Origin: Arsukibacterium perlucidum DSM 18276 | GTDB taxonomy: Bacteria > Pseudomonadota > Gammaproteobacteria > Enterobacterales > Alteromonadaceae | Reading direction: 5' to 3' | Length of the DNA: 64,000 bases | NCBI RefSeq assembly: GCF_000382165.1 | Contig: NZ_KB907723.1 | Location: forward strand, 1 to 64,000 | Part shown: piece by piece, positions 6,058-54,042 of the stretch | How the letters are laid out: every line of letters begins with the position of its first letter | Position numbering within the stretch: the first letter of the stretch is position 1 | Position numbers and translations under genes: made by a program | Notes under the pieces: model-generated | The model's input: the letters and a program-made list of their open reading frames with translations, nothing else | Told to the model about the DNA's origin: nothing | Databases searched by the model: none

Positions 6058-7788
6058 GTGCAGTTAAAACAAATCAGCCGGCGCGAGCCGGTAACCGGTC
6101 AGGTTATAGCAGAGCACCTGCATCCGGTGTTGCGCCGGTTGTACCAGAATCGCGGGATCAGCAATAGCGCAGAGTTGGAGCGGGGGGCTGCCGGGCTATT
6201 GCCCTTTAGTGCACTGAAGGGCATCAATGCCGCGGTGCAATTGTTAATCGATGCTTTGCAGCAACAGCAGCATATCGTGATTGTCGGCGATTTCGATGCC
6301 GACGGCGCTACCAGCACTGCCGTGCTGATGGCCGGCTTAAAAGCCTTTGGTTTTAAATACCTGGAATATATGGTGCCTAACCGTTTTGAGTACGGTTACG
6401 GCCTTACGCCTGAGCTGGCTGAGTTAGTGGTGGCGCAGGGCGCTGAACTGATTATTACCGTCGATAACGGTATTTCTGCGGTAGAAGGGGTGGCCCTGGC
6501 GAAAAAAGCCGGGGTCAAGGTGTTGGTTACCGACCATCACCTGGCCGGCAATACCCTGCCCAATGCTGATGCGATTGTAAATCCGAACCAACCTGGCTGT
6601 AATTTCCCAAGTAAAGCGCTGGCCGGTGTTGGGGTGGCGTTTTATCTGTTAATGGCGCTACGGGCTGGCTTGCGTGAACAGCAGTACTTTACAGAAAAAG
6701 GCCTGAGTGAGCCCAATATTGCTGAATTGCTTGATCTGGTTGCGCTTGGTACGGTCGCTGATGTGGTGCCGCTGGATACCAATAACCGTATTCTGGTACA
6801 TCAGGGCTTAATGCGGATTCGCAGTGGCAAATGCCGGCCGGGCATTCAGGCATTGATTGATATTGCCAACCGCCGGGCCGAAAAACTGACCGCCAGTGAC
6901 TTTGGCTTTTCACTGGCACCCAGATTAAATGCCGCCGGCCGCCTCGATGATATGGCGCTTGGTATAAGCTGCCTGCTGGCACCCGAGCTGGGTTTAGCCA
7001 GACAGTATGCGGCCGAACTGGATGCGCTGAATGTTGAGCGCCGGGCGATAGAGCAAAGTATGCAGTTAGAAGCGCAGGCTTTTTTAAGCAAATTATCCTT
7101 TGACGGCAGCAGCCTGCCAGAGTGTCTGTGCTTGTATCGCAATGATTGGCATCAGGGTGTTATTGGTATTTTAGCCGGCCGGATTAAAGAGCAGTTTCAC
7201 CGGCCGACAATCGTCTTTGCCGAGGGTGACAACGGCGAGTTAAAAGGCTCGGCACGCTCTATTCCAGGTTTACATATTCGCGACTTACTCGAAGAAATTG
7301 CCAGCCAGTATCCCGGGCTGATTAAGAAATTTGGCGGTCATGCCATGGCGGCGGGTTTAACCATCGCCGCCGAGCGGCTGGAAACCTTTCAGTTGGCGCT
7401 GAGCCTGACCGCCAAAAAGCATTTAACTGCCGAGCAGCTGACTGCAGTGATTTACAGCGATGGTGAGCTGGAAGCCGATTGTTTTGATATTAGTTTTGCT
7501 CAGTTACTGCAAAACGCCGGCCCCTGGGGCCAGGCTTTTCCGGAGCCGGTATTTGATGGCGAGTTTACGTTAATCAGCCAGAAAATGCTGGCAGAGCGTC
7601 ACCTGAAACTGATGTTGCAGGGGCCAAATGGCCTGTTGGTCGATGCTATCTGGTTTAATGCCGATAATAAAACCTGGCCTGACGTTAACGTAAAGAAAGT
7701 CCGGCTGGCCTATCAGCTGGATATTAATGAATATCGCGAGCAGCAAAATCTGCAACTTATTGTTCGCTATATGACAGCGCTGAGTTAA
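6058..7788 (+). CDS. recJ: Single-stranded-DNA-specific exonuclease RecJ
   Basis: RecJ is a 5'-3' ssDNA exonuclease of the RecF recombination and mismatch-repair pathways. The DHH-family metal motifs DFDADG (residues 78-83), DNGIS and TDHH are visible, and the C-terminal DHHA1 region carries KFGGHAMAAGL. The start is GTG 6058. Length 576 aa matches the family. It follows dsbC by 85 bp and precedes prfB, the order known from E. coli. Confidence 0.95.
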   Translation: MQLKQISRREPVTGQVIAEHLHPVLRRLYQNRGISNSAELERGAAGLLPFSALKGINAAVQLLIDALQQQQHIVIVGDFDADGATSTAVLMAGLKAFGFKYLEYMVPNRFEYGYGLTPELAELVVAQGAELIITVDNGISAVEGVALAKKAGVKVLVTDHHLAGNTLPNADAIVNPNQPGCNFPSKALAGVGVAFYLLMALRAGLREQQYFTEKGLSEPNIAELLDLVALGTVADVVPLDTNNRILVHQGLMRIRSGKCRPGIQALIDIANRRAEKLTASDFGFSLAPRLNAAGRLDDMALGISCLLAPELGLARQYAAELDALNVERRAIEQSMQLEAQAFLSKLSFDGSSLPECLCLYRNDWHQGVIGILAGRIKEQFHRPTIVFAEGDNGELKGSARSIPGLHIRDLLEEIASQYPGLIKKFGGHAMAAGLTIAAERLETFQLALSLTAKKHLTAEQLTAVIYSDGELEADCFDISFAQLLQNAGPWGQAFPEPVFDGEFTLISQKMLAERHLKLMLQGPNGLLVDAIWFNADNKTWPDVNVKKVRLAYQLDINEYREQQNLQLIVRYMTALS

Positions 7789-7922
7789 CTCCGCCGGTTT
7801 TGCTGCCAGGCAAGGCCGGCAAGCTTCTTAAGAAAAACATCAATAGATGGCTGCACTGCCAGCCATATCTTTGCTATAATCCGCAACAATTTTTTCGACC
7901 GTTTTAAGGCCTGAGATAACCC

Positions 7923-9021
7923 ATGTTTGAAGTGAATCCGGTAAACAACAGCATTAAAGATCTGACTGAACGCACTAACGTGCTTCGGGGGTATCTTTGA
8001 CTACGATGGCAAAAAAGAGCGCTTAGAAGAAGTTTCGCGCGAACTGGAAGACTCTGCCGTCTGGAATAATCCGGAAAAAGCCCAGGCACTGGGCAAAGAA
8101 CGTTCAGCGCTGGAGCAGGTGGTGGGTACTATCGACCGGTTGGATCAGGGGCTGGAAGATGTTGCTGGCCTGCTTGAGCTGGCGCTTGAAGCGGAAGATG
8201 AAGAAACCTTTGAAGAAGCCAAAACAGAATTAGCCGGGCTGGAAAAACAGCTGGCCTTGCTGGAATTCCGGCGGATGTTCTCCGGTAAAAATGATCAGAA
8301 CGACTGCTATCTGGATATCCAGGCAGGGTCGGGTGGTACTGAAGCGCAAGACTGGGCCAGCATGCTGATGCGGATGTATTTGCGCTGGGGTGAAGATAAA
8401 GGCTTTAAACCGGAACTGTATGAAGTGACCGATGGCGACGTCGCGGGCATTAAAGGTTGTACTATTAAATTCAGCGGCGATTACGCCTACGGCTGGCTGC
8501 GCACCGAAACCGGCGTCCATCGCTTAGTTCGCAAAAGTCCTTTCGATTCTGGTAACCGTCGCCATACCTCTTTTGCTTCAGTATTTGTGGCGCCGGAAAT
8601 TGACGACGATATTGAAATTGACATTAACCCGGCAGATTTACGCATCGATACCTATCGCGCGTCGGGCGCCGGTGGTCAGCACGTAAACCGGACTGACTCA
8701 GCAGTGCGGATCACCCACTTACCCACTAATATCGTGGTGCAGTGTCAGAACGATCGCTCACAACATAAAAACCGCGACAACGCCTATAAACAATTGCGTG
8801 CCAAATTGTATGAGTTTGAACTGCAAAAGCAGAATGCCGAAAAGCAGGCGCTGGAAGATACTAAATCGGATATTGGCTGGGGCAGTCAAATTCGCTCTTA
8901 CGTACTGGATGATTCGCGGATTAAAGATTTACGCACTGGTATTGAAACCCGCAATACCCAGGCGGTACTGGACGGTAATCTCGACAAGTTTATTGAAGCC
9001 AGCTTAAAAGCCGGTTTATAA
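7923..9021 (+). CDS. prfB: Peptide chain release factor 2 (RF2), expressed by programmed +1 frameshift
   Basis: RF2 terminates translation at UGA and UAA. The frame opens at ATG 7923, runs 25 codons to an in-frame TGA at 7998-8000, and continues in the +1 frame from 7999 to the stop at 9021. The coding sequence is therefore join(7923..7997, 7999..9021), 365 residues, the same as E. coli RF2. The specificity tripeptide SPF ([10 protein letters not shown]) and the catalytic GGQ ([12 protein letters not shown]) are present. The frameshift makes RF2 level self-limiting. A TATAAT box at 7875-7880 may serve a promoter. It is upstream of lysS, as in E. coli. Confidence 0.97.
7986..8001 (+). promoter_or_regulatory. 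RF2 programmed +1 frameshift site
   Basis: The sequence CGG GGG TAT CTT TGA C combines an internal Shine-Dalgarno-like GGGGG, the slippery CUU codon and the UGA-C stop context. It is the conserved signal by which peptidyl-tRNA-Leu slips one base forward when RF2 is scarce. The stop falls at codon 26, the same position as in E. coli prfB. Confidence 0.95.
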
Positions 9022-10628: not shown

Positions 10629-10646
10629 AAATGATGTCTGTAATGT

Positions 10647-10663
10647 TTACTGTTATCAGGTAA
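10647..10663. promoter_or_regulatory. Candidate enhancer (UAS) of the sigma-54 stress unit
   Basis: TTACTGTTATCAGGTAA is an imperfect dyad centred about 103 bp upstream of the -24 GG of the promoter at 10757. The same TTAC...GTAA arrangement lies at nearly the same distance from the promoters at 12170 and 14692. Upstream sites at 80-150 bp are where sigma-54 activators bind; the assignment to the activator encoded at 12547 is inference. Confidence 0.5.
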
Positions 10664-10756
10664 CTTCTACACTATACTGGTTTGGTGTTAACTGCCTCTG
10701 CTACATGCCTTTATATAAACTATTGTTTTTAAATGTTTATTTTTACCCCCCCATTC

Positions 10757-10772
10757 TGGCACAGGCTTTGCA
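10757..10772 (+). promoter_or_regulatory. Sigma-54 (-24/-12) promoter of the YqjD-like operon
   Basis: TGGCACAGGCTTTGCA matches the RpoN consensus TGGCACR-N4-TTGCW at every informative position, with the GG and GC dinucleotides correctly spaced. The expected start point near 10784 gives a leader of about 80 nt to ATG 10866. Confidence 0.85.
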
Positions 10773-10865
10773 GCACATTCGGGTATCAAATACAGATATA
10801 AACTGTGCATAAGTTAAAGTGCTTGAGTACAGTGGTGTCTTCTTTAAACAAGCAGGAGGTTTACA

Positions 10866-11183
10866 ATGGCAATAACTCAAACTGGTACGAAAACAGCAGG
10901 TAATTCGACTGCTAACTCGCCCGTAACTGAAAGAGCCTCAGAAGCAGCCCATCATGCGGTAGACTCGATGGCAGAGAAAGCAGCGACAGCGGAAGATAGC
11001 CTACGCAGAACTGCAGCCAGCTCTAAAGCAACTATCGATCAGAAGCAGGAAGAGTTAAAAATGCAAATGCAAAGCTCATACGAGCGTAGTAAGCAATTTG
11101 CCCAGGAAAACCCACTAGCTGCCGCTGGTATCGCATTTGCCGCCGGTATGTTGGTTAGTGCTCTGCTTCGTCGCGGCAACTAG
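10866..11183 (+). CDS. YqjD/ElaB-like (DUF883-type) membrane-anchored protein
   Basis: This 105-residue protein has a hydrophilic, Ala/Glu/Lys-rich helical body and one C-terminal membrane anchor (NPLAAAGIAFAAGMLVSALL) followed by RRGN. That is the layout of the YqjD/ElaB/YgaM family, whose E. coli members are stationary-phase inner-membrane proteins that bind ribosomes through their N-terminal part. An AGGAGG site precedes ATG 10866. It is first in a three-gene unit with YqjE- and YqjK-like partners, the same order as E. coli yqjDEK. The promoter here is sigma-54-type, whereas the E. coli genes depend on RpoS. Confidence 0.75.
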   Translation: MAITQTGTKTAGNSTANSPVTERASEAAHHAVDSMAEKAATAEDSLRRTAASSKATIDQKQEELKMQMQSSYERSKQFAQENPLAAAGIAFAAGMLVSALLRRGN

Positions 11184-11185
11184 TT

Positions 11186-11656
11186 ATGGCTGAATCTCGG
11201 GACACAGAGCCGCAACAAACGGCCTCTGAGCCATTGCCAGAAAAAGTAATGGCTCAGTTAACTGAGATAGCTGCCTTACTCAGCCTGACTGCCGAGCAGT
11301 ACAAGCAACAAACGCAGATCACCAAGCAAACAGCCAGCGCCGAAATGGCGTTATCACGCCGTAGTTTAATGCTGGCGGCGGGTTTACTGGTAGCGCTTGG
11401 TGCTGGTGTAGTGATGTTGTGGGGTTCGGTGTTGGTGTTTGCCGGTTATTTACTATTTCAGGCAACCGCATCAATACCGCTTACCGCAGCACTGTTATTT
11501 GTATTGCAAGTATTAGTGTTGTATTGGTGTTTGCGGAATATGCGTTATTCGCTGAAGCAGGTAGGCTTTAGCAATACCATAGCGCAGGTTAAAGGCATAC
11601 TCAGGTTCACTGCTGAACCTGCAGGAGGCAATAGTGTTAATCGATCTGTTGATTAA
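11186..11656 (+). CDS. YqjE-like two-TM membrane protein
   Basis: The 156-residue protein has a hydrophilic N-terminal third and two strong membrane spans (about residues 62-87, LMLAAGLLVALGAGVVMLWG, and 94-117, IPLTAALLFVLQVLVLYWCL). Similar two-span proteins (YqjE / phage-holin superfamily III) always sit between YqjD- and YqjK-like genes. It starts 3 bp after its neighbour and overlaps the next gene by 23 bp, so all three are cotranscribed. The function is unknown; the assignment rests on topology and context. Confidence 0.6.
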   Translation: MAESRDTEPQQTASEPLPEKVMAQLTEIAALLSLTAEQYKQQTQITKQTASAEMALSRRSLMLAAGLLVALGAGVVMLWGSVLVFAGYLLFQATASIPLTAALLFVLQVLVLYWCLRNMRYSLKQVGFSNTIAQVKGILRFTAEPAGGNSVNRSVD

Positions 11657-11885
11657 AAAAGATAAGCGGAAGCTACAGCAGTGTACTGAACAATTTCAGC
11701 ATCGCCAGCAGCTACGCCATGCTTTTTTGTTTCTATCAGGGCAGCGCTGTAAGCAATTTCTGGGCTCCGCTCCCGGCCTGACTCTGAGCTTTGGTGCCGG
11801 TATGCTAATGCAGTTGCGGCACAACCCAGCTGTTAAAACCTTGCGAAGCCTGGGAGCCATTCAATGGCTGCGACGTTTAGTATAG
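11634..11885 (+). CDS. YqjK-like small basic protein
   Basis: This 83-residue basic protein starts at GTG 11634, five bases after an AGGAGG that lies inside the preceding gene, so translation is probably coupled. It has an amphipathic Gln/Lys/Arg-rich N-terminus (KKDKRKLQQCTEQFQHRQQL) and a moderately hydrophobic centre (APGLTLSFGAGML). Size, charge and position as third gene behind YqjD- and YqjE-like genes suggest a YqjK counterpart. No catalytic motif is visible. Confidence 0.55.
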   Translation: MLIDLLIKKDKRKLQQCTEQFQHRQQLRHAFLFLSGQRCKQFLGSAPGLTLSFGAGMLMQLRHNPAVKTLRSLGAIQWLRRLV

Positions 11886-12060
11886 GGTCACTGTTTGCTC
11901 TGGAGCTTCCCTATTGAGCGAAGGGCAATTACCTACCAGACCAAGTCGTTTTAATGCTGATCTGGCGCTAATGATACTGGCGTCATTATTGGTGTGTCTG
12001 AAGATTGTTGCTTAGCTCCGAAACAGATCCGCATATCAATAAATAATTGTCATGAAAAAG

Positions 12061-12074
12061 TTACCTGGCAGTAA
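12061..12074. promoter_or_regulatory. Candidate enhancer (UAS) for the DUF1328 promoter
   Basis: TTACCTGGCAGTAA carries the half-sites TTACCTG and CAGTAA, the same two half-sites as the dyad at 10647 read on the other strand, with a shorter spacer. Its centre is about 103 bp upstream of the -24 GG at 12171. Confidence 0.5.
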
Positions 12075-12169
12075 GTAATAATTGCTGGTTGTTATCTTGT
12101 TTATTTGTTGCCCTGCCATTGTCTAATATAAATTGCATATAAATCATTAAGTTGCATAAAAATTCTTTC

Positions 12170-12185
12170 TGGCATGGCTTTCGCA
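12170..12185 (+). promoter_or_regulatory. Sigma-54 promoter of the DUF1328 gene
   Basis: TGGCATGGCTTTCGCA has the -24 box TGGCATG and a -12 box TCGCA (one mismatch to TTGCA) with exact RpoN spacing. The predicted start near 12197 leaves a 40-nt leader before ATG 12240. Confidence 0.75.
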
Positions 12186-12239
12186 TATGTTTAATCGATT
12201 AATTTAAGCTATGTGCAAACCATGCATTAAGGAGCAAAA

Positions 12240-12416
12240 ATGTTAGGATGGGCATTAACCTTTTTAGTTATCGCACTGATTGCAGGTGTGCTGGGTTTTG
12301 GCGGTATTGCCGGAACTGCAGCTGGCATCGCTAAAATTATTTTCTTTATTTTCATCGTGCTACTGGTTATTTCACTGTTGGCTGGCGCCTTACGAGGCAA
12401 GTCGCCGAAGATGTAG
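12240..12416 (+). CDS. DUF1328 / YtjA-family small membrane protein
   Basis: A 58-residue protein, [20 protein letters not shown]..., with two membrane spans separated by [12 protein letters not shown]. This pattern is diagnostic of the DUF1328 (UPF0391, YtjA) family. An AAGGAG precedes ATG 12240. In E. coli ytjA lies next to osmY; here the OsmY-like BON gene is 2.3 kb away in the same regulated island. The role is unknown; the promoter suggests induction under envelope or nutritional stress. The stop codon falls inside a 17-bp tandem duplication. Confidence 0.88.
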
Positions 12417-12440
12417 CGATGATGAAGATGTAGCGATGAT
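12407..12440 (+). repeat. 17-bp perfect tandem duplication across the DUF1328 stop codon
   Basis: GAAGATGTAGCGATGAT occurs at 12407-12423 and again at 12424-12440 without a mismatch. The first copy supplies the last codons and the TAG stop. The unit is not a multiple of three, so it looks like a recent slippage event behind the reading frame. Confidence 0.9.
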
Positions 12441-12546
12441 AATGTAATCACAGCTCAGGCGAATTACTCTAATCAGGCCACTGCAGTTTTGTAGTGGCTT
12501 TTAACTTTGTTTGATATTCGGCAGCAAAGCGGGTTCAGAGGTGTAT

Positions 12547-13893
12547 TCAGCGTTCCAGCTGATATTTCTCCAGCTTGTTGTATAATGTTTTTACACTTAC
12601 GCCGAGCTGTTGCGCAGTATCGGTTTTATTACCACCGTTTTTGGCTAATGTTCTTAGAATAGCAGCCTTTTCTAATTCATCTAAACGCACACCGGTTGGA
12701 ATAGTATCTGCTATTGCGCCGCCATCGCTATCAAGGTGCGGTTCTTCCAGCAGCAGGTGCTCTGGCTCAATTGTGTTATCTGCCAGAATATAGGCACGTT
12801 CAACCGCATGCTTTAATTCCCGGACGTTTCCCGGCCAGCTATGATTAGCGATCAGGCTTTGCGCCTGCGCGGAAAACTGCTTTCTTTGTTGCTCCTGCAC
12901 ATTCCGATAAGCCAGAAAATGTTGAGCCAGGCCAATAATATCCTCGGCGCGGTCGCGCAGCGGTGGCACGGTTACCGGGAACTGGGCCAGCCGGAAGTAT
13001 AAATCTTCCCGCAGCATATCTTCGGCAATTGCTTGCATGGGGTCACGGTTGGTTGCGGCTGCGATCCGGACATTGGCAGTAAACGTCTTATCACTGCCAA
13101 CTGGCCGGTATTCGCCATTTTCCAGTACCCGCAATAATTTTACCTGATGCTCAATCGGCATTTCGGTAATTTCGTCCAGAAACAGGGTGCCCGCCTCAGC
13201 CTGGGCAAATACCCCCTGATGATCGCGGTGTGCTCCGGTAAAAGAACCTTTGATATGACCAAATAATACACTGTCAATCAGCTCCGGGCTAAGCGCTCCG
13301 CAGTTTATAGCCACAAAGGGTTTATCAGACCGTAAACTGGCCAGGTGCAGAGTATTGGCAACCAGCTCTTTACCTGCGCCACTTTCACCGACAATCAGCA
13401 CATTGGCTTCGGTAATCGCTACTTTACGGATGGTCCGGTATAGTTTCAGCATTGGCTTAGATGAACCCACTAACATACCAAACTGATCAAGTTCACTGGA
13501 GGTGGCTTTTACCTGTTTACGCTCAGTGCTAAGTTGCTGATAGAAATCCTGCAGGGTATCAATTACCGAACCAAAGTCCAGTGGCGCCCGGAAGTGATAT
13601 CCGGCACCACGACGCATTAAGGTATCAAGCAATTCATTTGGCGGGCCGCTACTGATAAAAATAAAATCGATTTCGGTTAAAACTCTGCTTTCCAGCAAGC
13701 GTTTATAATCATCATTATCGCTGTCATCAGACTCTATAACAGCAAGATCGCAATGCTGTTGCTGCAGTTGTTCAGACCAGGCTGAACTATCACTACTTTT
13801 AACTATGATAAATTGTCTGACTGCCGGTGATTGTAATAATTTGTCAGCGAGCTCCGGGTCACGCAGATGAATAAATAACCTGGGTTTGCTCAT
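12547..13893 (-). CDS. Sigma-54-dependent transcriptional activator with degenerate receiver domain
   Basis: A 448-residue enhancer-binding protein. Residues 1-125 are receiver-like but lack the catalytic residues: the position of the phospho-acceptor Asp is Glu54 (DLAVIES), the N-terminal acidic pair reads HLRD, and the beta-5 Lys is replaced (FRAPLD). Residues about 140-370 form the AAA+ domain with Walker A GESGAGKE (169-176), the sigma-54-contact loop GSFTGA (216-221) and Walker B GTLFLDEI. A Fis-type helix-turn-helix (NKTDTAQQLGVSVKTLYNKL) ends the protein. No kinase gene is adjacent. It sits between four units with sigma-54 promoters and is their likely regulator. How it is switched on cannot be seen. 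Confidence 0.88.
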   Translation of the reverse strand: MSKPRLFIHLRDPELADKLLQSPAVRQFIIVKSSDSSAWSEQLQQQHCDLAVIESDDSDNDDYKRLLESRVLTEIDFIFISSGPPNELLDTLMRRGAGYHFRAPLDFGSVIDTLQDFYQQLSTERKQVKATSSELDQFGMLVGSSKPMLKLYRTIRKVAITEANVLIVGESGAGKELVANTLHLASLRSDKPFVAINCGALSPELIDSVLFGHIKGSFTGAHRDHQGVFAQAEAGTLFLDEITEMPIEHQVKLLRVLENGEYRPVGSDKTFTANVRIAAATNRDPMQAIAEDMLREDLYFRLAQFPVTVPPLRDRAEDIIGLAQHFLAYRNVQEQQRKQFSAQAQSLIANHSWPGNVRELKHAVERAYILADNTIEPEHLLLEEPHLDSDGGAIADTIPTGVRLDELEKAAILRTLAKNGGNKTDTAQQLGVSVKTLYNKLEKYQLER

Positions 13894-13955
13894 GTTGTCA
13901 CTCCATGTGATAGTGCTCTACTCTAATCCAGCAATGTAAAATTAACAATGGCCAT

Positions 13956-13970
13956 CAGTAAAATTTACTG
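13956..13970. promoter_or_regulatory. Perfect 7+1+7 palindrome between the activator and the helical-protein gene
   Basis: CAGTAAAATTTACTG has 7-bp arms CAGTAAA / TTTACTG around one base. It carries the CAGTAA core of the dyads at 10647 and 12061 but in the opposite orientation, and it lies about 70 bp upstream of the -24 element at 14031. It is also about 65 bp before the activator start, so it could serve autoregulation. Confidence 0.4.
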
Positions 13971-14030
13971 AAATAGACTTAGAGATGAATTGAAAAATAA
14001 TAATGTCATTATAAATCATAAGTTTAAACT

Positions 14031-14046
14031 TGGTATATGAATTGAA
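14031..14046 (+). promoter_or_regulatory. Probable sigma-54 promoter, weaker match
   Basis: TGGTATATGAATTGAA has a good -24 box and a -12 box TTGAA with one mismatch at the usually invariant C. A start point near 14058 would give a short leader to GTG 14086. Confidence 0.5.
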
Positions 14047-14085
14047 TATGAATTAATGACAACCGAGGTCTCAGGAGGCAGTATT

Positions 14086-14535
14086 GTGTTGGCGTTTAAT
14101 CCAAAAACCGAGAGTAATAGCGCCGGTGATCAGGCAACATTAAGTCTGGTACTGGCAGTGTGTGAGCAAGCCCGGCCATTTTACCAGCGTACTGCACCGC
14201 TGATAAGTAATAACAATATTCGCCGCTATTTTCATGAGCTTGAGTTGCTGCATCAGCAAGCTTTCAGCCTCAATAACGCCGACGGTGTCAAGGTTACCAG
14301 CGATGCTGAAATTAACGCGGTTTGCCAGTGGTATCGTTGGGAAAATGCCGGCAAAGCCGATGATAAAAATGAATGGCTGGCAGAATTACCACAGCAGCTG
14401 CACCGGCAGTTGACTTCATTTAAGCGTTTAAACCGGAAATTAACTCAGCGCGACAATGCACGGGCGTTGGCAAACCTGACTGCTGGTTTGCAGATTGTGA
14501 CTGATCAGTTGAGCCCCCTGTTATCTGGCAAATAA
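14086..14535 (+). CDS. Helical-bundle stress protein, DUF2383/PA2169-like (tentative)
   Basis: GTG 14086 (149 aa) is preferred over ATG 14056 because a perfect CAGGAGG lies 8 bases before it and the ATG would lie ahead of the predicted transcript start. The protein appears all-helical (LSLVLAVCEQARPFYQRTAP, IRRYFHELELLHQQAF, LAELPQQLHRQLTSFKR), with no signal peptide or membrane span. The first helices recall the ferritin-like DUF2383/PA2169 family, but metal-binding residues are not clearly conserved, so the call is tentative. It belongs to the sigma-54 island by position and promoter. Confidence 0.5.
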   Translation: MLAFNPKTESNSAGDQATLSLVLAVCEQARPFYQRTAPLISNNNIRRYFHELELLHQQAFSLNNADGVKVTSDAEINAVCQWYRWENAGKADDKNEWLAELPQQLHRQLTSFKRLNRKLTQRDNARALANLTAGLQIVTDQLSPLLSGK

Positions 14536-14589
14536 GTGCCTGATAGATAACTATCAAAAGATAAGGGACAAAAGATAAATAGGAAATAT

Positions 14590-14599
14590 TTACCGGTAA
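14590..14599. promoter_or_regulatory. Candidate enhancer (UAS) for the BON-gene promoter
   Basis: TTACCGGTAA is a perfect 10-bp palindrome centred about 98 bp upstream of the -24 GG at 14693, matching the spacing and TTACC/GGTAA half-sites at 10647 and 12061. Confidence 0.5.
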
Positions 14600-14691
14600 G
14601 CTGGTTAAAAATACAATCAAAAAATTAACGCTAAATGAATGAGAAAATTACGTTTTTTTATAAAGCAATAGCTTAGAGGTTTCTTAGAAGT

Positions 14692-14707
14692 TGGTATCAA
14701 ACTGGCA
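14692..14707 (+). promoter_or_regulatory. Sigma-54 promoter of the BON-domain gene
   Basis: TGGTATCAAACTGGCA keeps the -24 GG and -12 GC with exact spacing; the -12 box TGGCA has one mismatch to TTGCA. The predicted start near 14719 leaves a short leader with an AAGGAG site before ATG 14743. Confidence 0.65.
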
Positions 14708-14742
14708 ACAGTATTGATGTCTCACAACAAAGGAGTGAATAT

Positions 14743-15309
14743 ATGAAACGTACTACTTTAGCCGTAATGATGACCGTAGCATTGGCTGGTACTTCAGTTG
14801 CAGCAAACGCTAACGATTGGCAAGATGGTGCCAAAGACGCATGGATAGATGGTAAAGCTGAAACAACGTTACTGTTGAACGGTAACCTTAATTCCTTTGA
14901 CATCAACACCGATGTTAAGAACGGTAAAATAACATTGACCGGTAAGGTAGACAGAGAAGTTGATAAAGCGCTTGCTGCCGAATTAGTTGAGAATCTGGAT
15001 GGTGTTACCTCCGTTGATAATAAATTAACGGTATCAAACGAACGCCATATGCGGGATAAAAAGGACCACGACGATGACGGTAGTGGCTTAACCGATGCCA
15101 AAGTAGCGACGGTTGTTAAAACCCGCTTATTGTTTGAGTCTGAAACCAGCGGCACCGCAATAGATGTCGATGTAGAAAATGGCGTGGTAATGCTCAAAGG
15201 TGAAGTGGATTCAGATGCTGAGAAAGATCTGGCAGAAGCTATCGCCAAGAAGACCAACGATGTTAAACGCGTAGACAATCAACTGACAGTAGCGAAGAAA
15301 AACTACTAA
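14743..15309 (+). CDS. Periplasmic twin-BON-domain protein, OsmY-like
   Basis: A 188-residue exported protein with a signal peptide (MKRTTLAVMMTVALAGTSVA, cleavage near ANA) and two BON domains: about residues 40-100 (INTDVKNGKITLTGKVDREV...GVTSVDNKLTV) and 125-187 (IDVDVENGVVMLKGEVDSDA...VKRVDNQLTV). An acidic linker (KKDHDDDGSG) separates them. OsmY-type BON proteins act in the periplasm in osmotic and stationary-phase stress, as envelope-protecting or chaperone-like factors. It has its own promoter and ends at a strong terminator. In E. coli osmY is RpoS-controlled; here a sigma-54 element replaces that. Confidence 0.88.
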   Translation: MKRTTLAVMMTVALAGTSVAANANDWQDGAKDAWIDGKAETTLLLNGNLNSFDINTDVKNGKITLTGKVDREVDKALAAELVENLDGVTSVDNKLTVSNERHMRDKKDHDDDGSGLTDAKVATVVKTRLLFESETSGTAIDVDVENGVVMLKGEVDSDAEKDLAEAIAKKTNDVKRVDNQLTVAKKNY

Positions 15310-15475: not shown

Positions 15476-16639
15476 TCAGGGAGAAGACTGCCAGGGGTTA
15501 CTATGATCCGGGTTAGTAATAAAATTTGGGTCGGTCAGGCTATATAAAAATGCCAGCACGGCGGCCCGTTCGCTGGCAGTTAATTCAAAACCGCGAACAA
15601 ACTGACTTTTACCAGGATGCAACCTGCCATCTCCGGCATAGTCGCCTTCAAGTAACACCTTCCCCCCTGCCGCATAAAAATCGATTACCTGCTCCAGGGT
15701 GGCAATACTGCCATCATGCATATAGGGCGCGGTCAGAGCAATGTTACGCAGGGTTGGTGCCCGGAAACGACCGTCATCTGCCGGGTTCATTGTCAACTCT
15801 GCCAGGCCGCGGTCATGCTGCGGGTAACCTGCTGCTGATGAATTAGCGGTGTAATATAAACCGGTATTGTGAAAAGGACGCAGATCTAATGGCTGCATAC
15901 TGTGGCTGGTAGCCTGGGTGAAATTGAAACCACCATGGCAATGATGGCATTCCAGCCGCTCCGAAAAAAACAAGTTCATTCCTGTAATTTGCAGCTGGCT
16001 TAGTGCGGCATCATCGTTTTGGTAGGCATAGCGGTCGAAGTCGGATTGGAACGACAATAAACTCCTGACAAAACTGGCCAGCGCCATGACCAGCTGCTGC
16101 ATTTCTGGTTCGGTGCTGCCAAAGGCTTGCTTGAATAACTGTGGATAGGGTGGCCGTTTTAGTCGTTGCAGTACTTCTGCTTCCTGACCAGCAAGCCCAA
16201 GTTCAACCGGGTCGTCACTGAATAACGGTATCAGTAACTGCTGTTCAATGTCTGTCAGGCCATCGTGGGCCCAGGTCAGAGTATTATTATAAGCGATATT
16301 AACCAGCGCCAGCGCATTGCGCCGATGTTGCTGGCCGGTAGCACCCACTGAGCGGGGTCGGGCCTCAGCGAAAGCAAATTGCTGCTGATGACAACTGGCA
16401 CAACTTTGCTTGCCATTAACTGATAGCTGAGTATCGTAAAACAGGTGGCGACCCAGCTCTACTTTAGCATCAGTCATCGGGTTTTCTGCCGGCACCCGTG
16501 GCAGCGGCATATCAGGTGGCAATGGCCATTGCCAGGCAGTCGTTGGCTCCTTAGGTTTGTTGCAACTGCCCAGTATCAGGCTGGCCAACACTACACACAG
16601 TGCCAGCCTAAGCGCACTGCCAGGATTAATAACTTGCAT
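15476..16639 (-). CDS. Di-heme oxidase, MbnH / MXAN_0977 family
   Basis: A di-heme c-type protein of the cytochrome c peroxidase superfamily. Heme motifs are CASCH (near residue 85) and CHHCH (near residue 235). The C-terminal APTLRNIALTAPYMHDGS stretch is shared with CcpA/MauG-type enzymes. The N-terminus is a lipoprotein signal (lipobox LGSC). ATG 16639 follows an AAGGA better than ATG 16654 does. In characterised pairs MbnH oxidises a tryptophan of its partner MbnP to kynurenine, making a copper site. The gene overlaps the mbnP-like gene by 14 bp, supporting a functional pair rather than a peroxidase acting alone. Confidence 0.85.
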   Translation of the reverse strand: MQVINPGSALRLALCVVLASLILGSCNKPKEPTTAWQWPLPPDMPLPRVPAENPMTDAKVELGRHLFYDTQLSVNGKQSCASCHQQQFAFAEARPRSVGATGQQHRRNALALVNIAYNNTLTWAHDGLTDIEQQLLIPLFSDDPVELGLAGQEAEVLQRLKRPPYPQLFKQAFGSTEPEMQQLVMALASFVRSLLSFQSDFDRYAYQNDDAALSQLQITGMNLFFSERLECHHCHGGFNFTQATSHSMQPLDLRPFHNTGLYYTANSSAAGYPQHDRGLAELTMNPADDGRFRAPTLRNIALTAPYMHDGSIATLEQVIDFYAAGGKVLLEGDYAGDGRLHPGKSQFVRGFELTASERAAVLAFLYSLTDPNFITNPDHSNPWQSSP

Positions 16640-17405
16640 GTTGTCCTTGCTCATCAGGGGTCATTTGCCATACTGGCGTCAGCATTAAATTGTTAAAAAG
16701 CTGCTGACAGTTACTTTGCTGGCTATCTGACATGCAGCTGCTGTTAAGCGCAAGGTCTACCTTATCCAGCAGTAGCACCAAATCCAGTTGCAGGCTCTGG
16801 CCTTGTTGGTAATCCAGCGTTACCTTGAAAGTATTGGCGGCTTTGCACGGTGCTACAGGCGGACGTAAGACACTGGCTGACTGACAGCCGGTAGAGCCAA
16901 GGTGAAATGCCCAGCCATGCCCCGGGCCTTGTAAATCCAGACGCAGAAATTTGTAGCCAAGTTGCCAGCTCCAGTACATTTCGCTGTGATTTAACGGCGA
17001 ACTGGCAGCAAGCGGATTCTGATGGTTAACAGGAAAAGGCAGGCCAAGGGTAAAGCTCAGCTGGCCCGGGGTTAAAGCTTCAGTAAACTGCAGTAGCCAG
17101 TTGCTGTTGCCCTGACAGTCAGTACCCAGTAAGGCCAGGCGCGATTGCTGCCACTGGGTGGTAGCTAGCTGCAGTGGGCGCTGGTTGAGACTAAAATCGC
17201 TTAAAAAAAACCGTAGGTTTTGGATCTGCCACGGTTGCTCAGCAATAAAAATGGGTTGCTGGCAGTCTGGTTGCTGCTGGAGCCCGCTAAGTTGCACGGC
17301 AAGATGTTTTGAAGAGCCAGATGCAGTGTCAGGCTGGCAGCCGCCAAGCAGACTGATAGCAAGCACAAGCATCAGATTAATGGTTATCTTAAACGCTGAA
17401 ATCAT
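16626..17405 (-). CDS. MbnP-family copper-binding protein (metallo-mystery pair, WxW)
   Basis: A 259-residue lipoprotein (signal ending LLGGCQP) with the family's WxW motif as YWSWQLGYKFLRLDL (about residues 146-160), one Trp being the site MbnH modifies in characterised systems. Cysteine pairs (GTDCQGN, GSTGCQS, APCKAAN, SSCMSD...NCQQL) fit the four-Cys pattern of the family. It is expressed with the downstream di-heme enzyme. No methanobactin genes are near, so the pair probably serves a general periplasmic copper role; that is inference. Confidence 0.82.
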   Translation of the reverse strand: MISAFKITINLMLVLAISLLGGCQPDTASGSSKHLAVQLSGLQQQPDCQQPIFIAEQPWQIQNLRFFLSDFSLNQRPLQLATTQWQQSRLALLGTDCQGNSNWLLQFTEALTPGQLSFTLGLPFPVNHQNPLAASSPLNHSEMYWSWQLGYKFLRLDLQGPGHGWAFHLGSTGCQSASVLRPPVAPCKAANTFKVTLDYQQGQSLQLDLVLLLDKVDLALNSSCMSDSQQSNCQQLFNNLMLTPVWQMTPDEQGQHASY

Positions 17406-17512
17406 AATTTGGTTGTATTTAGTAAAGCTGCGGTAAACAATACTCTAAACTAAAGTGAAAATCGACTAAGACTGCGTCAGCTTGGCGTCAGGATATAAGA
17501 CAGGTAATGTTT

Positions 17513-20254
17513 ATGAGCATCCGTTATTTTTGGCAGAGTAAGGCGGCAGTAAAGTTTTCTGCTCTGGTATTAGTTTGTGCCAGCTGGCTCAGTGCAGAGG
17601 TGCAGGCCCATGCTGAGCATGATAAAGCACGATTCGTAGCTGAAACGGGCCGGGACAGCGGCCGCTGTGCGGATGTGTTGCGGCCTTGCCGGACCATTGG
17701 CTATGCCTTAACTCAGGCAGGCAAGGGCGACAAGGTGCTGGTTGCGTCGGGCCAGTATCAACTTGCCACTGCAGATGATGCGGTGTTGCTATTAAGCGAG
17801 ATAGTGCCGGTATTGGGTGGTTACAACAGGTTTGACCATTTTTTGCAGCAGGCACCGCAGCTGAATAAGACAGTGCTAACCGGCGTGCCGGCTGAATTTG
17901 TTGAGCGGCTTTACCAGCGCGGTTTTCAGATTATTAATGATGGTCCCGGCCGCTTTGGTACCGAACTCAGCCAGCAGCTTGCCGCCCATAGTGCGCTGCA
18001 ACAAAGCCAGCAAGGTGCTGACTGCGAAGCAGGAACGGCGGGCGTGTTCAGCTGCGATAAGATTGATTTGGTTGCTCATCTGGCGTTAGCTGATTTGAGT
18101 GCGACTGCCAGTTCGGCCAATGATATCTGGGGCCATACTGATCTTAATACGGGTATTGAGTTTGCTTTAATCGGTTTAAATAATGGCACAGCAGTGGTCA
18201 GTCTGGCCAATCCGGCTACCCCGGTAGTGGTGGGAACTGTTAATGGCAGCAATACCAGCTGGCGCGACATTAAAGTGCTGCAGTTTTTTGATGATAATCT
18301 CGGCCGCTGGCAGGCTTATGCTTACGTATCTTCGGAGGCAAATAACGGCATTCAGATAATCGACTTAAATGACTTGCCCAGCAGCGTGCGGCTGGCTGCT
18401 ACAGATCGTTCGGCCAACTCCGCACATAACTTGTATGTCAGTAATGTTGATTACACAACCAACACCGCGTTAACCGGTCAGCAACCGGCGCTGCACCTTG
18501 CCGGCCAACCTGAGCAGGGTGGCGCGGTGGCCAGCTATAGCCTGGCGGATCCATTACAGTTAAGCGCTAACTGGCTGCAAAGCGGTGCCAGTCGCAGCGA
18601 TTACAGCCATGATGTTGCCTCTATGCTGGTCACCGACCAGCGTGCCATTAATCAGTGTGACCGGCCAGAGTGCCAGGTGTTATTTGATTTTAATGAGCAG
18701 AATATTAAGCTGTGGGATATCAGTGATACCGGCAATCTGGCGCTGGCCGACTTTAGCTATAGCCTGGCCAGTTATGTCCATTCCGGCTGGTGGACTGAAG
18801 ATCAGCAATATCTATTTGTGCATGATGAACTGGATGAAACCAATCATGGTCTGAACACCACAGTGCGGGTATTTGAATTAACCGATTTAACGGCACCGGT
18901 ATTAGCGGCGACTTACACCGGGCCTACCAAAGCAATTGATCATAACGGCTTTGTCCGCGGCAATCGTTATTACATGTCGAATTATCAACGTGGATTAACC
19001 ATTCTTGATATTACTAACCCGGCAGCCCCGGTGCAGGCTGGTTTTTTTGATACCTTTCCGGCATCAGACAGCGCGGCTTTTAATGGCATGTGGGGCGTGT
19101 ATCCGTACCTGCCTTCTGGGCTGATTATCGGTAGCGATATCAATAGTGGTCTTTATGTGTTCAGGGATAATAAGGTTAACCCGCTGGCAGGGGCATTATC
19201 ATTCAGTCAGAGCGAGCTGCGGGTAAGCCCTGGCGAGGTGGCGCAACTGCAGGTAGCACGAACAGGCGGTAGCACTGCAACAAGTGTTGGCTATGAAATT
19301 CTGGCTGGCCGGGCTGAGCCAGAACAGGATTATCAGAATATCCGTGGCCGTCTCAACTGGGCGGTAAATGATAGCAGTAGTAAAACGATCGGTATCACTA
19401 CACTTGATCGAGGCCTGAACGCTGAACGCGAGTTGTTTGTCCGGTTATTTGACCCGGCAAACGGCGCCAGCCTGACCAACCCGTCTTATCTGCGGCTGCG
19501 TTTTGGCGAAGATCCGCCGCGCGCTGGTGTGGTAAGTCTGGTTGAGTCTGCATTATCGGTGGTTGAAGCCGATACCACTGTCAGTATTACCGTGCGCCGG
19601 CTGGGTGGCAGTGACGGTGCTATCAAAGTGGGTTATGCGCTGGACAGTGGCACTGCAACGGTTGGTGAGGATATTGAGGCTGCTAATGGCGAGCTAAGCT
19701 GGGAAGATGGCGACAGCAGCGAGCGGCAAATTGTGCTGAAAATTATTGACGATGAGCTACCGGAGCAGGATGAAACCGCGGTGCTGCGTTTATCCAGCAT
19801 TGCTGGCAGTGAGTTAGGCGAAATAACCGCACTTACCCTGACTATTCTGGACAACGATGCAAACACGGCTCCCAGCGTCAGTATCGGCGAAAATCGCCAG
19901 GTTAATGCCAGCCAGAGTGTCACCTTAACGGCAGTGGCAACCGATCCGGAAGGGGATGCCATCAGCTATCAGTGGCAGCAGCAAAGTGGCACCAGCGTTA
20001 GTTTGCAAAACGCTGCCAGCAACACGGTAAGTTTTGTTGCGCCATCCAGTGCCAGTGATCTGGTGTTCAGCGTTACGGCCACCGACGCCAGAGGAGCGGC
20101 TGCCAGCGCCAGTATTACCATAACGGTTGTGGCCAGCCCGGTGCCATTGCCAGTACCACCGGCCACCACCGGATCTTCCGGTGGCAGTATGCCGGTTAGC
20201 GTTTTATTACTGGGCGGGCTGCTATTTATGCGGCGGGTTTATAATAAAAGCTAA
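17513..20254 (+). CDS. Choice-of-anchor B surface protein with Calx-beta-type repeats and C-terminal sorting signal
   Basis: A large exported protein of about 913 aa with signal peptide MSIRYFWQSKAAVKFSALVL... Residues about 150-560 carry LVIVD-like repeats (IEFALIGLNNGTAVVSLANP, QAYAYVSSEANNGIQIIDL, GLTILDITNPAAPVQAGFFD), typical of choice-of-anchor B proteins. Two Calx-beta-like modules follow (about 565-665 and 680-785, ending LTILDND), then a PKD-like segment and a tail of GSSGGSM, a hydrophobic span and RR, resembling GlyGly-CTERM sorting signals. ATG 17513 is better spaced from CAGG than ATG 17507. It is divergent from the MbnP/MbnH pair with a 107-bp shared promoter region, so a joint role in surface metal handling is possible but unproven. 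Confidence 0.75.
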   Translation: MSIRYFWQSKAAVKFSALVLVCASWLSAEVQAHAEHDKARFVAETGRDSGRCADVLRPCRTIGYALTQAGKGDKVLVASGQYQLATADDAVLLLSEIVPVLGGYNRFDHFLQQAPQLNKTVLTGVPAEFVERLYQRGFQIINDGPGRFGTELSQQLAAHSALQQSQQGADCEAGTAGVFSCDKIDLVAHLALADLSATASSANDIWGHTDLNTGIEFALIGLNNGTAVVSLANPATPVVVGTVNGSNTSWRDIKVLQFFDDNLGRWQAYAYVSSEANNGIQIIDLNDLPSSVRLAATDRSANSAHNLYVSNVDYTTNTALTGQQPALHLAGQPEQGGAVASYSLADPLQLSANWLQSGASRSDYSHDVASMLVTDQRAINQCDRPECQVLFDFNEQNIKLWDISDTGNLALADFSYSLASYVHSGWWTEDQQYLFVHDELDETNHGLNTTVRVFELTDLTAPVLAATYTGPTKAIDHNGFVRGNRYYMSNYQRGLTILDITNPAAPVQAGFFDTFPASDSAAFNGMWGVYPYLPSGLIIGSDINSGLYVFRDNKVNPLAGALSFSQSELRVSPGEVAQLQVARTGGSTATSVGYEILAGRAEPEQDYQNIRGRLNWAVNDSSSKTIGITTLDRGLNAERELFVRLFDPANGASLTNPSYLRLRFGEDPPRAGVVSLVESALSVVEADTTVSITVRRLGGSDGAIKVGYALDSGTATVGEDIEAANGELSWEDGDSSERQIVLKIIDDELPEQDETAVLRLSSIAGSELGEITALTLTILDNDANTAPSVSIGENRQVNASQSVTLTAVATDPEGDAISYQWQQQSGTSVSLQNAASNTVSFVAPSSASDLVFSVTATDARGAAASASITITVVASPVPLPVPPATTGSSGGSMPVSVLLLGGLLFMRRVYNKS

Positions 20255-53128: not shown

Positions 53129-54042
53129 GGCAGTGCAGAGCGAGTCAGGGCTTTACACTGGTAGAGTTAATGATTGCTTTGGTTCTGGGGTTGGTGCTTC
53201 TGGGCGGCGTTATCGGGGTGTTTTTGTCTAATCAGACCACTAACCGGGTAAATAACGAACTGGCCTCTTTGCAAAGCAGTGCCCGCTTAGCGTTTCAGCT
53301 AATGTCACAGGATATCCGCAGTGCTGGTTTCGCGGGGTGTAACAATTCAGTACGGGTTGTCAGTGTGATTGGTGGTGCACCTGCCTGGTCGCAATGGCAG
53401 GGCGGTTTAGAAGGCTTCGCTGCCGGTACTAACGGTGTGAGTGAGTCTATACGCTTAATGTATGGAGCCGGCGCTACGGCGTCTGTTAGCAGCCATGTGC
53501 CGCCACTGTTAAATCTTAATGAAGCGTCTCCTCTTCAGGCTGGCGAAATTGCCATGTTATGTGATGACACACTGGCGGCAATTTTCCAGGTAGCAGCCAC
53601 AGCACCAAATGTTGTCAGCCATGCCGCTGCTGCTCCACTCAATTGTTCTGAAGATTTGGGGTATCAGTCTCCGCTTGTTTGCGCTGCTCCCCGGCCGCGC
53701 GTCTTTCTAGGGGGAGCCATGTTAATGCGCTTAGAGTCTGCGTTGTGGCTGGTGGCTGCCAGTGCTGACGATCCGGCAATTAATTCCTTATATCGGGAAA
53801 TTATTATCGGAGGCAATATGGTACGAGAGGAAGTTTTGTTTGGGGTGGCAAGTTTGACCCTGGCCTATCAGGATGGCAATCAACCCTTTGGCCCTGCTGC
53901 TTTTTCACCAGCAGTAGCTATGGGAAATGTCACCGGTGTACAGGTTTCATTGGTTATGGATCCGAATGCCTTTACCAACGCCGACCTGCCGATAGAAATG
54001 CGGACCATTGAATTTTTTGCTGCTGTGCGCAACAGGTTATGA
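53125..54042 (+). CDS. pilW: Minor pilin PilW
   Basis: 305 aa. The prepilin site SQG/FTLVELMIALVLGLVLLGG is followed by the PilW hallmark SSARLAFQLMSQDIRSAGFAGC. The C-terminal part includes a beta-rich domain. It is a tip-complex subunit; genes before and after are within 10 bp, so it is cotranscribed. Confidence 0.9.
   Translation: MRQCRASQGFTLVELMIALVLGLVLLGGVIGVFLSNQTTNRVNNELASLQSSARLAFQLMSQDIRSAGFAGCNNSVRVVSVIGGAPAWSQWQGGLEGFAAGTNGVSESIRLMYGAGATASVSSHVPPLLNLNEASPLQAGEIAMLCDDTLAAIFQVAATAPNVVSHAAAAPLNCSEDLGYQSPLVCAAPRPRVFLGGAMLMRLESALWLVAASADDPAINSLYREIIIGGNMVREEVLFGVASLTLAYQDGNQPFGPAAFSPAVAMGNVTGVQVSLVMDPNAFTNADLPIEMRTIEFFAAVRNRL

Follow-up and report, generated by a model that had tools for sequence, protein, structure and literature searches.

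A candidate sigma-54 regulon of stress-type genes around a local activator in Arsukibacterium perlucidum

The first 64,000 nucleotides of contig NZ_KB907723.1 of Arsukibacterium perlucidum DSM 18276 (hereafter, the window) contain a short gene island flanked by lysS on one side and a cytochrome-peroxidase-like gene on the other (both named by eye). Its plus strand carries a yqjD/E/K-like operon (10866-11885) and genes for a DUF1328 protein, a helical protein and a twin-BON protein, with a gene for a sigma-54 activator amid them on the minus strand (Table 1). In Escherichia coli the corresponding genes yqjD, elaB, ytjA and osmY are linked to RpoS; here each of the four transcription units follows a -24/-12 element. 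Do these genes, then, form a sigma-54 regulon under an activator of their own? We consider this very probable: the sequences point to a compact regulon in which the central activator, an enhancer-binding protein (EBP), would drive genes for envelope and protective proteins of stress type. The preliminary description of the locus had proposed a regulon with a local activator, and the proposal is supported by the conserved linkage of the genes, their conserved -24/-12 sites, an enhancer motif found at exactly the four promoters, and, in the family, the presence of DUF1328 only where one of two activators occurs. The genome contains rpoN. Comparison between genomes carries most of the weight; all comparative counts given below were taken over related genomes.

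All four -24/-12 elements noted earlier exist, at 10757, 12170, 14031 and 14692. The exact GG/GC spacing ascribed to every one of them is present at three (GG-N10-GC), whereas the helical-gene element at 14031 reads GG-N10-GA. Scored with a hand-written sigma-54 weight matrix, the elements reach 18.8, 14.4, 8.2 and 5.9, in the order of their positions. Seven relatives could be aligned (three Arsukibacterium, two Rheinheimera, Idiomarina and Aliidiomarina). The helical and BON sites keep their positions in seven of them, the DUF1328 site in four (all of the aligned relatives whose locus carries DUF1328) and the yqjD-like site in three. The GA form at 14031 is itself kept in 7/7 relatives, and the twin-BON site at 14692 is TGGCA in 7/7; a match at 14703 that overlaps the latter is not conserved. 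The strict pattern has ten matches in the 4-Mb genome (four for the reversed pattern), two of them in the island. Of the remaining eight, six fall within or abut open frames and one (L002) is located 46 bp before a 61-aa open reading frame (ORF). Another strict site (L006, G000:C13:77714-77729) stands 115 bp before a gene for a secreted-looking protein, maybe of PEP-CTERM type as judged by eye. PrsR, the known regulator of genes of this type, is also a sigma-54 activator.

The same promoter type recurs before the related genes elsewhere. Over 32 loci (near relatives L011-L013 left out), a -24/-12 score of at least 10 was found upstream of 24/27 twin-BON, 6/7 DUF883, 12/25 helical and 7/14 DUF1328 genes, compared with 10/226 other promoter-proximal ORFs and 1/33 EBP genes (target versus other promoters, Fisher p = 5e-28, not corrected for relatedness). 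The ORF filter used in this count lost genes: a six-frame search places twin-BON in 31/32 loci (27 genes counted), DUF1328 in 23 loci (14 counted) and DUF883 in nine (seven counted).

Upstream of these elements we identified a second signal. A palindromic model of 53 upstream regions (sites scoring at least 9.9 with at least 190 bases upstream; L144 left out) gave TGTAA-N3-TTACA-like and TTTTAC-N10-GTAAAA-like solutions, with best log-likelihoods of 237-270, versus 49-51 in three shuffles (Markov resamples, limited to 35 of the 98 seeds applied to the real regions). We take the two solutions to reflect a single structure in which the centres of two dyads are separated by 20-22 bp. A paired-dyad matrix was trained on 40 regions, all from outside the genus of the window, and had a log-likelihood of 211, against 17-27 in five shuffles (Markov resamples, 25 rounds as compared with 40 on the real regions). 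Its best four among 63,966 window positions are 12053, 10639, 14582 and 13935, so that every promoter of the island has one; the fifth, at 53775, has no -24/-12 site nearby. The enhancer region of the yqjD-like operon is conserved in the three Arsukibacterium relatives, and the clearest copy of the paired site is the DUF1328 enhancer of a Rheinheimera metagenome-assembled genome (L014), a 38-bp palindrome TGTGAAACAGTTACC-N8-GGTAACTGTTTCACA. Scanned jointly for enhancer and promoter, 35 EBP loci (531 kb), the source of most of the training regions, gave 57 matches, with a few promoters hit twice; the reversed sequence gave none. At three further BON genes of this genome neither element is present (promoter scores 1.7-4.7, enhancer scores up to 4.0). 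Searching the four promoters of the window for 5-mer dyads without a prior model yielded little.

Across the 35 activator loci the distances from enhancer to promoter group around 82, 94 and 105 bp, values that differ by roughly a turn of the helix; the Rayleigh test for such phasing is suggestive only, because the sequences are related, a few promoters were counted twice and seven periods were tried. The helical-gene enhancer also lies upstream of the activator gene, 42 bp from its start codon, which suggests that the activator may regulate itself.

Orthologs of the activator were found in 29/394 genomes of the order (this one included) and in 11/114 genera. A six-frame profile search of the 28 other activator loci identified twin-BON in 27, the helical gene in 23, DUF1328 in 22 and DUF883 in nine, and every one of these loci has at least one of the four families; the activator-bearing genome G348 (L139) shows no twin-BON gene in the stretch fetched. 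Gene order and orientation vary from locus to locus, which argues that the linkage has been maintained and not inherited as a frozen block. Among 90 loci, other genes of the window were matched only in L011-L017 and in the window's own L008 and L009. Distant EBP matches in other phyla were not accepted as part of the system; by eye, nine of these loci (L018-L021, L042, L046, L047, L057 and L072) lack such gene neighbours.

The products fall into the families named in the preliminary description, with DUF1328 and BON over their Pfam cut-offs, DUF883_C slightly under, and the minus strand encoding a protein that matches Sigma54_activat. The DUF1328 protein also passes NF010228 (PRK13682, YtjA type; 99 bits, cut-off 71), and the twin-BON protein stays below the OsmY equivalog NF007858 (71 bits, cut-off 174), so that we call it OsmY-like and not OsmY. 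The YqjE and YqjK names, which follow operon order, are presumptive. The helical protein has no Pfam match. It is predicted to form five helices (pLDDT 81.6), and among known folds it comes closest to YciF and further ferritin-like proteins, weakly, with an E-value of 0.05 at best; a more distant member of the iterated helical profile matches DUF2383 (31.7 bits, cut-off 30.8). A ferritin-like fold is therefore likely for this protein.

Table 1 Features of the island with their positions in the window
Feature	Position	Strand	Details
Dyads of the yqjD-like operon	10639-10651, 10659-10671	+	TGTAATGTTTACT and GGTAACTTCTACA, centres 20 bp apart
-24/-12 element of the yqjD/E/K-like operon	10757..10772	+	TGGCACAGGCTTTGCA, exact consensus; kept in L011-L013
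YqjD/ElaB-like protein (DUF883 C-terminal region)	10866..11183	+	DUF883_C 24.9 bits, just below cut-off 27
YqjE-like membrane protein	11186..11656	+	Phage_holin_3_6 22.3 bits, below cut-off 28.4
YqjK-like small protein	11634..11885	+	ORF; no match in Pfam or NCBIfam
Dyads of DUF1328	12053..12086	+	TGAAAAAGTTACC and AGTAATAATTGCT, centres 21 bp apart
-24/-12 element of DUF1328	12170..12185	+	TGGCATGGCTTTCGCA, good; kept in L011-L014
DUF1328 (YtjA-type) small membrane protein	12240..12416	+	PF07043 60.9 bits, cut-off 27
Sigma-54 activator (EBP), 448 aa	12547..13893 (ORF including stop)	-	Sigma54_activat 213.9 bits; HTH_8 48.5 bits, cut-off 22
Dyads of the helical gene	13935..13969	+	TGTAAAATTAACA and AGTAAAATTTACT, centres 22 bp apart
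-24/-12-like element of the helical gene	14031..14046	+	TGGTATATGAATTGAA, GG-N10-GA
Helical protein, probably ferritin-like/DUF2383-type	14086..14535	+	start GTG at 14086, preceded by AGGAGG
Dyads of the twin-BON gene	14582..14615	+	GGAAATATTTACC and GGTTAAAAATACA, centres 21 bp apart
-24/-12 element of the twin-BON gene	14692..14707	+	TGGTATCAAACTGGCA, weak in this genome
Twin-BON OsmY-like protein, signal-peptide-like start (by eye)	14743..15309	+	BON 125 bits, two stretches

What such a regulon would serve is a separate matter. The name 'general stress' rests on the gene families; a stress signal, a protective role of the products, a physiological stress response and a gene set 'rewired' from RpoS are inferred. 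A real sigma-54 regulon with a specific envelope or surface task instead, such as biofilm formation, salinity or attachment, is a possibility to be taken seriously, although we give it the smaller share of our belief: all island products apart from the helical one look membrane-bound or secreted by eye, yet cytoplasmic protectant families share the promoter kind or the linkage. Thus a Dps gene in L143 (G321, 10592) has both an enhancer pair (20.2) and a promoter (13.8), a CsbD gene lies beside DUF1328 in L145 (G060, 9421), and a hemerythrin gene with a -24/-12 score of 13.8 was found in L186 (G194, 809), in a genome with the second type of EBP described below. These hint at a larger regulon that may include Dps, hemerythrin and CsbD.

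The activator deserves closer description. It consists of an N-terminus with a receiver fold that has no phosphorylatable aspartate, an AAA+ domain and a C-terminal Fis-type helix-turn-helix (HTH_8). The sigma-54-contacting loop is intact in 35/35 activators (GAFTGA in 32 and GSFTGA in three), the Walker A pattern is present in all 35 and Walker B in 32; the alignment of these 35 left out the EBP of L142 (G233, 6969-8379), whose reading frame is split in two by a real break or an assembly error. AlphaFold2 modelled the N-terminal 138 residues as a receiver fold (pLDDT 83.2), and the model matched 54 PDB chains at E up to 0.001 (best 1.2e-4), receivers for the most part among the best 50. At the sequence level Pfam Response_reg matched 1/35 activators, weakly (E 0.045). 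The site of the phospho-accepting aspartate is never Asp in the 35 (Glu in 18, Gly in seven, Gln in six, Cys in two and Ala in two), and the conserved-lysine site is Arg in 34/35; Ser81 is kept in 35/35 and His100 in 34/35. The protein therefore has the fold of an NtrC-type response regulator and not its phospho-accepting Asp and Lys. Since the receiver fold offers no phosphorylatable aspartate, the activator likely works without phosphorylation. Membership in a named NCBIfam EBP family was rejected, as the best 25 of 29 matched models all stay below their cut-offs.

The sequences strongly imply an enhancer-binding mechanism. The activator would bind a pair of TGTAA-N3-TTACA-like dyads whose centres are separated by 20-22 bp, or some two turns of the helix. 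This paired site stands roughly 80-105 bp ahead of each -24/-12 element, where the AAA+ domain of the activator would open the sigma-54 holoenzyme. Its activity would probably be set by its own amount, a partner or a ligand, and not by a kinase, because of the altered receiver.

Twenty genomes of the same family have no activator by the strict cut-off of the order-wide search; a profile of its N-terminal domain gave weak matches in three of them (E 7e-5 or weaker) and none in seventeen. Twin-BON is nevertheless present in 12 of the 20 (E 1e-10 or better), and exactly those twelve, with none of the remaining eight, carry a different, receiver-type EBP. In the eight genomes with neither EBP both twin-BON and DUF1328 are absent. 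Altogether, DUF1328 was found in 17/17 family genomes with either activator (12 with the receiver-type EBP and five with the one described here), against 0/8 with neither. The receiver-type EBP is encoded within about 11 kb of DUF1328 on the same contig in 11/12 genomes; that of L188 (10776-12110) has a true receiver (Response_reg 66 bits), and a HisKA-domain gene adjoins it. DUF1328 genes with a -24/-12 score of at least 10 number 13/17 in the twelve genomes and 4/6 in the five activator-bearing ones, and BON genes in the twelve 12/13, one at an odd distance. A related TGTAA-N3-TTACA dyad motif is present in the promoters of genomes with the receiver-type EBP (28 regions, modelled without a shuffled control), and the enhancer-promoter model matched nine times in 10 of these loci, against none on reversed sequence. 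Sister genera without the activator have the same genes alongside another activator, one with a true receiver. In L184, L185, L190 and L193, which belong to sister genera of this kind, the yqjD-like operon adjoins receiver-like genes by eye, which start, for example, ...ILMADDDEDDRLL... and ...VLLIEDDEDDYFL...; these may belong to a phosphorelay that feeds the receiver-type EBP.

The second EBP raises the possibility that the sigma-54 promoters of the island answer to another protein, the local activator being incidental or auxiliary only. The twelve genomes, in which the same families and mostly sigma-54-type DUF1328 and BON promoters coexist with the receiver-type EBP, speak for it, as do two genomes of the window's own genus that carry both EBPs. 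However, the receiver-type EBP had no match in this genome at E 1e-100, and in 35/35 loci examined the local EBP is accompanied by one or more of the four families, so we regard this explanation as improbable.

Several observations weigh against a regulon driven by the local activator, and we set them out together. Single -24/-12 sites are weak evidence alone: with up to two mismatches, TGGCACN5TTGCW has 62 matches in the window versus 61.3 expected, the site at 14031 lacks GC, and that at 14692 scores just 5.9. In the relatives, 13/25 helical and 7/14 DUF1328 genes lack a site that reaches the threshold, though part of this DUF1328 group stands behind a BON gene of the same orientation. That the enhancer model should be a paired one was settled after the window promoters had been viewed, and single-motif models rank the BON and DUF1328 promoters 1-3, the helical 5-166 and the DUF883 6-31. 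The joint threshold is properly passed in the window only by the yqjD-like and DUF1328 promoters; the joint scan paired the BON enhancer with a site inside the gene and missed the helical enhancer. Simple patterns discriminate poorly genome-wide, with 410 versus 256 control places, 43 versus 24 over 29 genomes and 31 versus 12 over 20 genomes; the 29-genome scan gave four matches in this genome, at the DUF1328 and BON promoters and twice inside open frames. Finally, the genome keeps rpoS, which leaves room for RpoS control and makes parallel or dual control possible.

That the four sites are chance matches and the genes are read from sigma-70 or RpoS promoters like their E. coli counterparts, a view to which the loose window count, the two weak sites and the presence of rpoS lend something, is very improbable and was rejected: site positions are conserved across genera, a matrix learned outside the genus peaks at exactly the four island promoters, three paralogous BON genes have no such signal, and promoter enrichment and the 57 versus 0 joint-scan matches also speak against it.

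Beyond the island, we lean slightly towards a broader view. Many gammaproteobacteria related to Rheinheimera and Idiomarina may possess, beside RpoS, a second general stress response built on sigma-54, with a single conserved enhancer of paired form and with twin-BON, DUF1328, DUF883 and ferritin-like/Dps-type genes as its core, in which the activator has been exchanged (a non-phosphorylatable receiver fold versus a true response regulator) and the targets and the enhancer code have stayed unchanged. Two interchangeable activators working on one enhancer code would constitute a natural experiment on regulator replacement and on receiver domains without phosphorylation. If genes of OsmY, YqjD and YtjA type, perhaps joined by CsbD and Dps, share a conserved sigma-54 regulon, this would mean that sets of stress genes can change sigma factor and acquire an ATP-driven switch, and DUF1328 and DUF2383-type genes of unknown function gain a testable context.

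Beyond the twin-BON gene, a cytochrome-peroxidase-like gene beside a small lipoprotein-like gene occupies 15476-17405 on the minus strand, a pair that we take to resemble those of MbnH/MbnP type, and it is followed on the plus strand (17507-20254) by a gene for a 915-aa secreted-looking protein. The peroxidase-like gene adjoins the island in the three Arsukibacterium relatives and is unmatched in the two Rheinheimera loci.

The usual associations of sigma-54 are with nitrogen, motility, transport and a small number of damage responses. Among the papers listed (for several searches the best 15-20 of more) we found no report of sigma-54 control of the island genes, which is weak evidence, as subscription journals were mostly outside the coverage. 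In the passages covered, PMC12316311 mentions no DUF and, at 12 of its 26 'bon' matches, has those letters only inside other words; the coverage extended to passages of PMC13101641, PMC8262913 and PMC10100675.

A sigma-54 promoter served by an EBP is a known kind of system; the gene set and the activator variant appear to be new. One close parallel is PspF with the psp genes, where a local, phosphorylation-free sigma-54 activator is likewise encoded next to divergent envelope-stress genes and acts through an enhancer and a -24/-12 promoter. PspF, however, has no N-terminal sensory domain and its targets are the psp genes, and the activator scores 259.5 bits with the PspF model TIGR02974, far below the cut-off of 443.55. 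PrsR, the PEP-CTERM response regulator (TIGR02915), shares the AAA+ domain, the Fis helix-turn-helix and a similar length (445 model positions), but the activator reaches only 291 bits with it (cut-off 502.6), in a match from residue 96 that leaves the N-terminal domain uncovered. The RpoS regulon of E. coli (osmY, dps, yqjD, elaB) has similar contents, namely an OsmY-like BON protein, DUF883, weakly a YciF-like fold and, in one relative, Dps; the promoters of the island, in contrast, belong to the sigma-54 type, have an enhancer and would depend on an activator that uses ATP. The receiver-type EBP of sister genera, as in L188, occurs with the same target families and a related TGTAA-N3-TTACA motif at their promoters, and differs from the activator of the island in its true receiver domain and the adjoining HisKA-domain gene.

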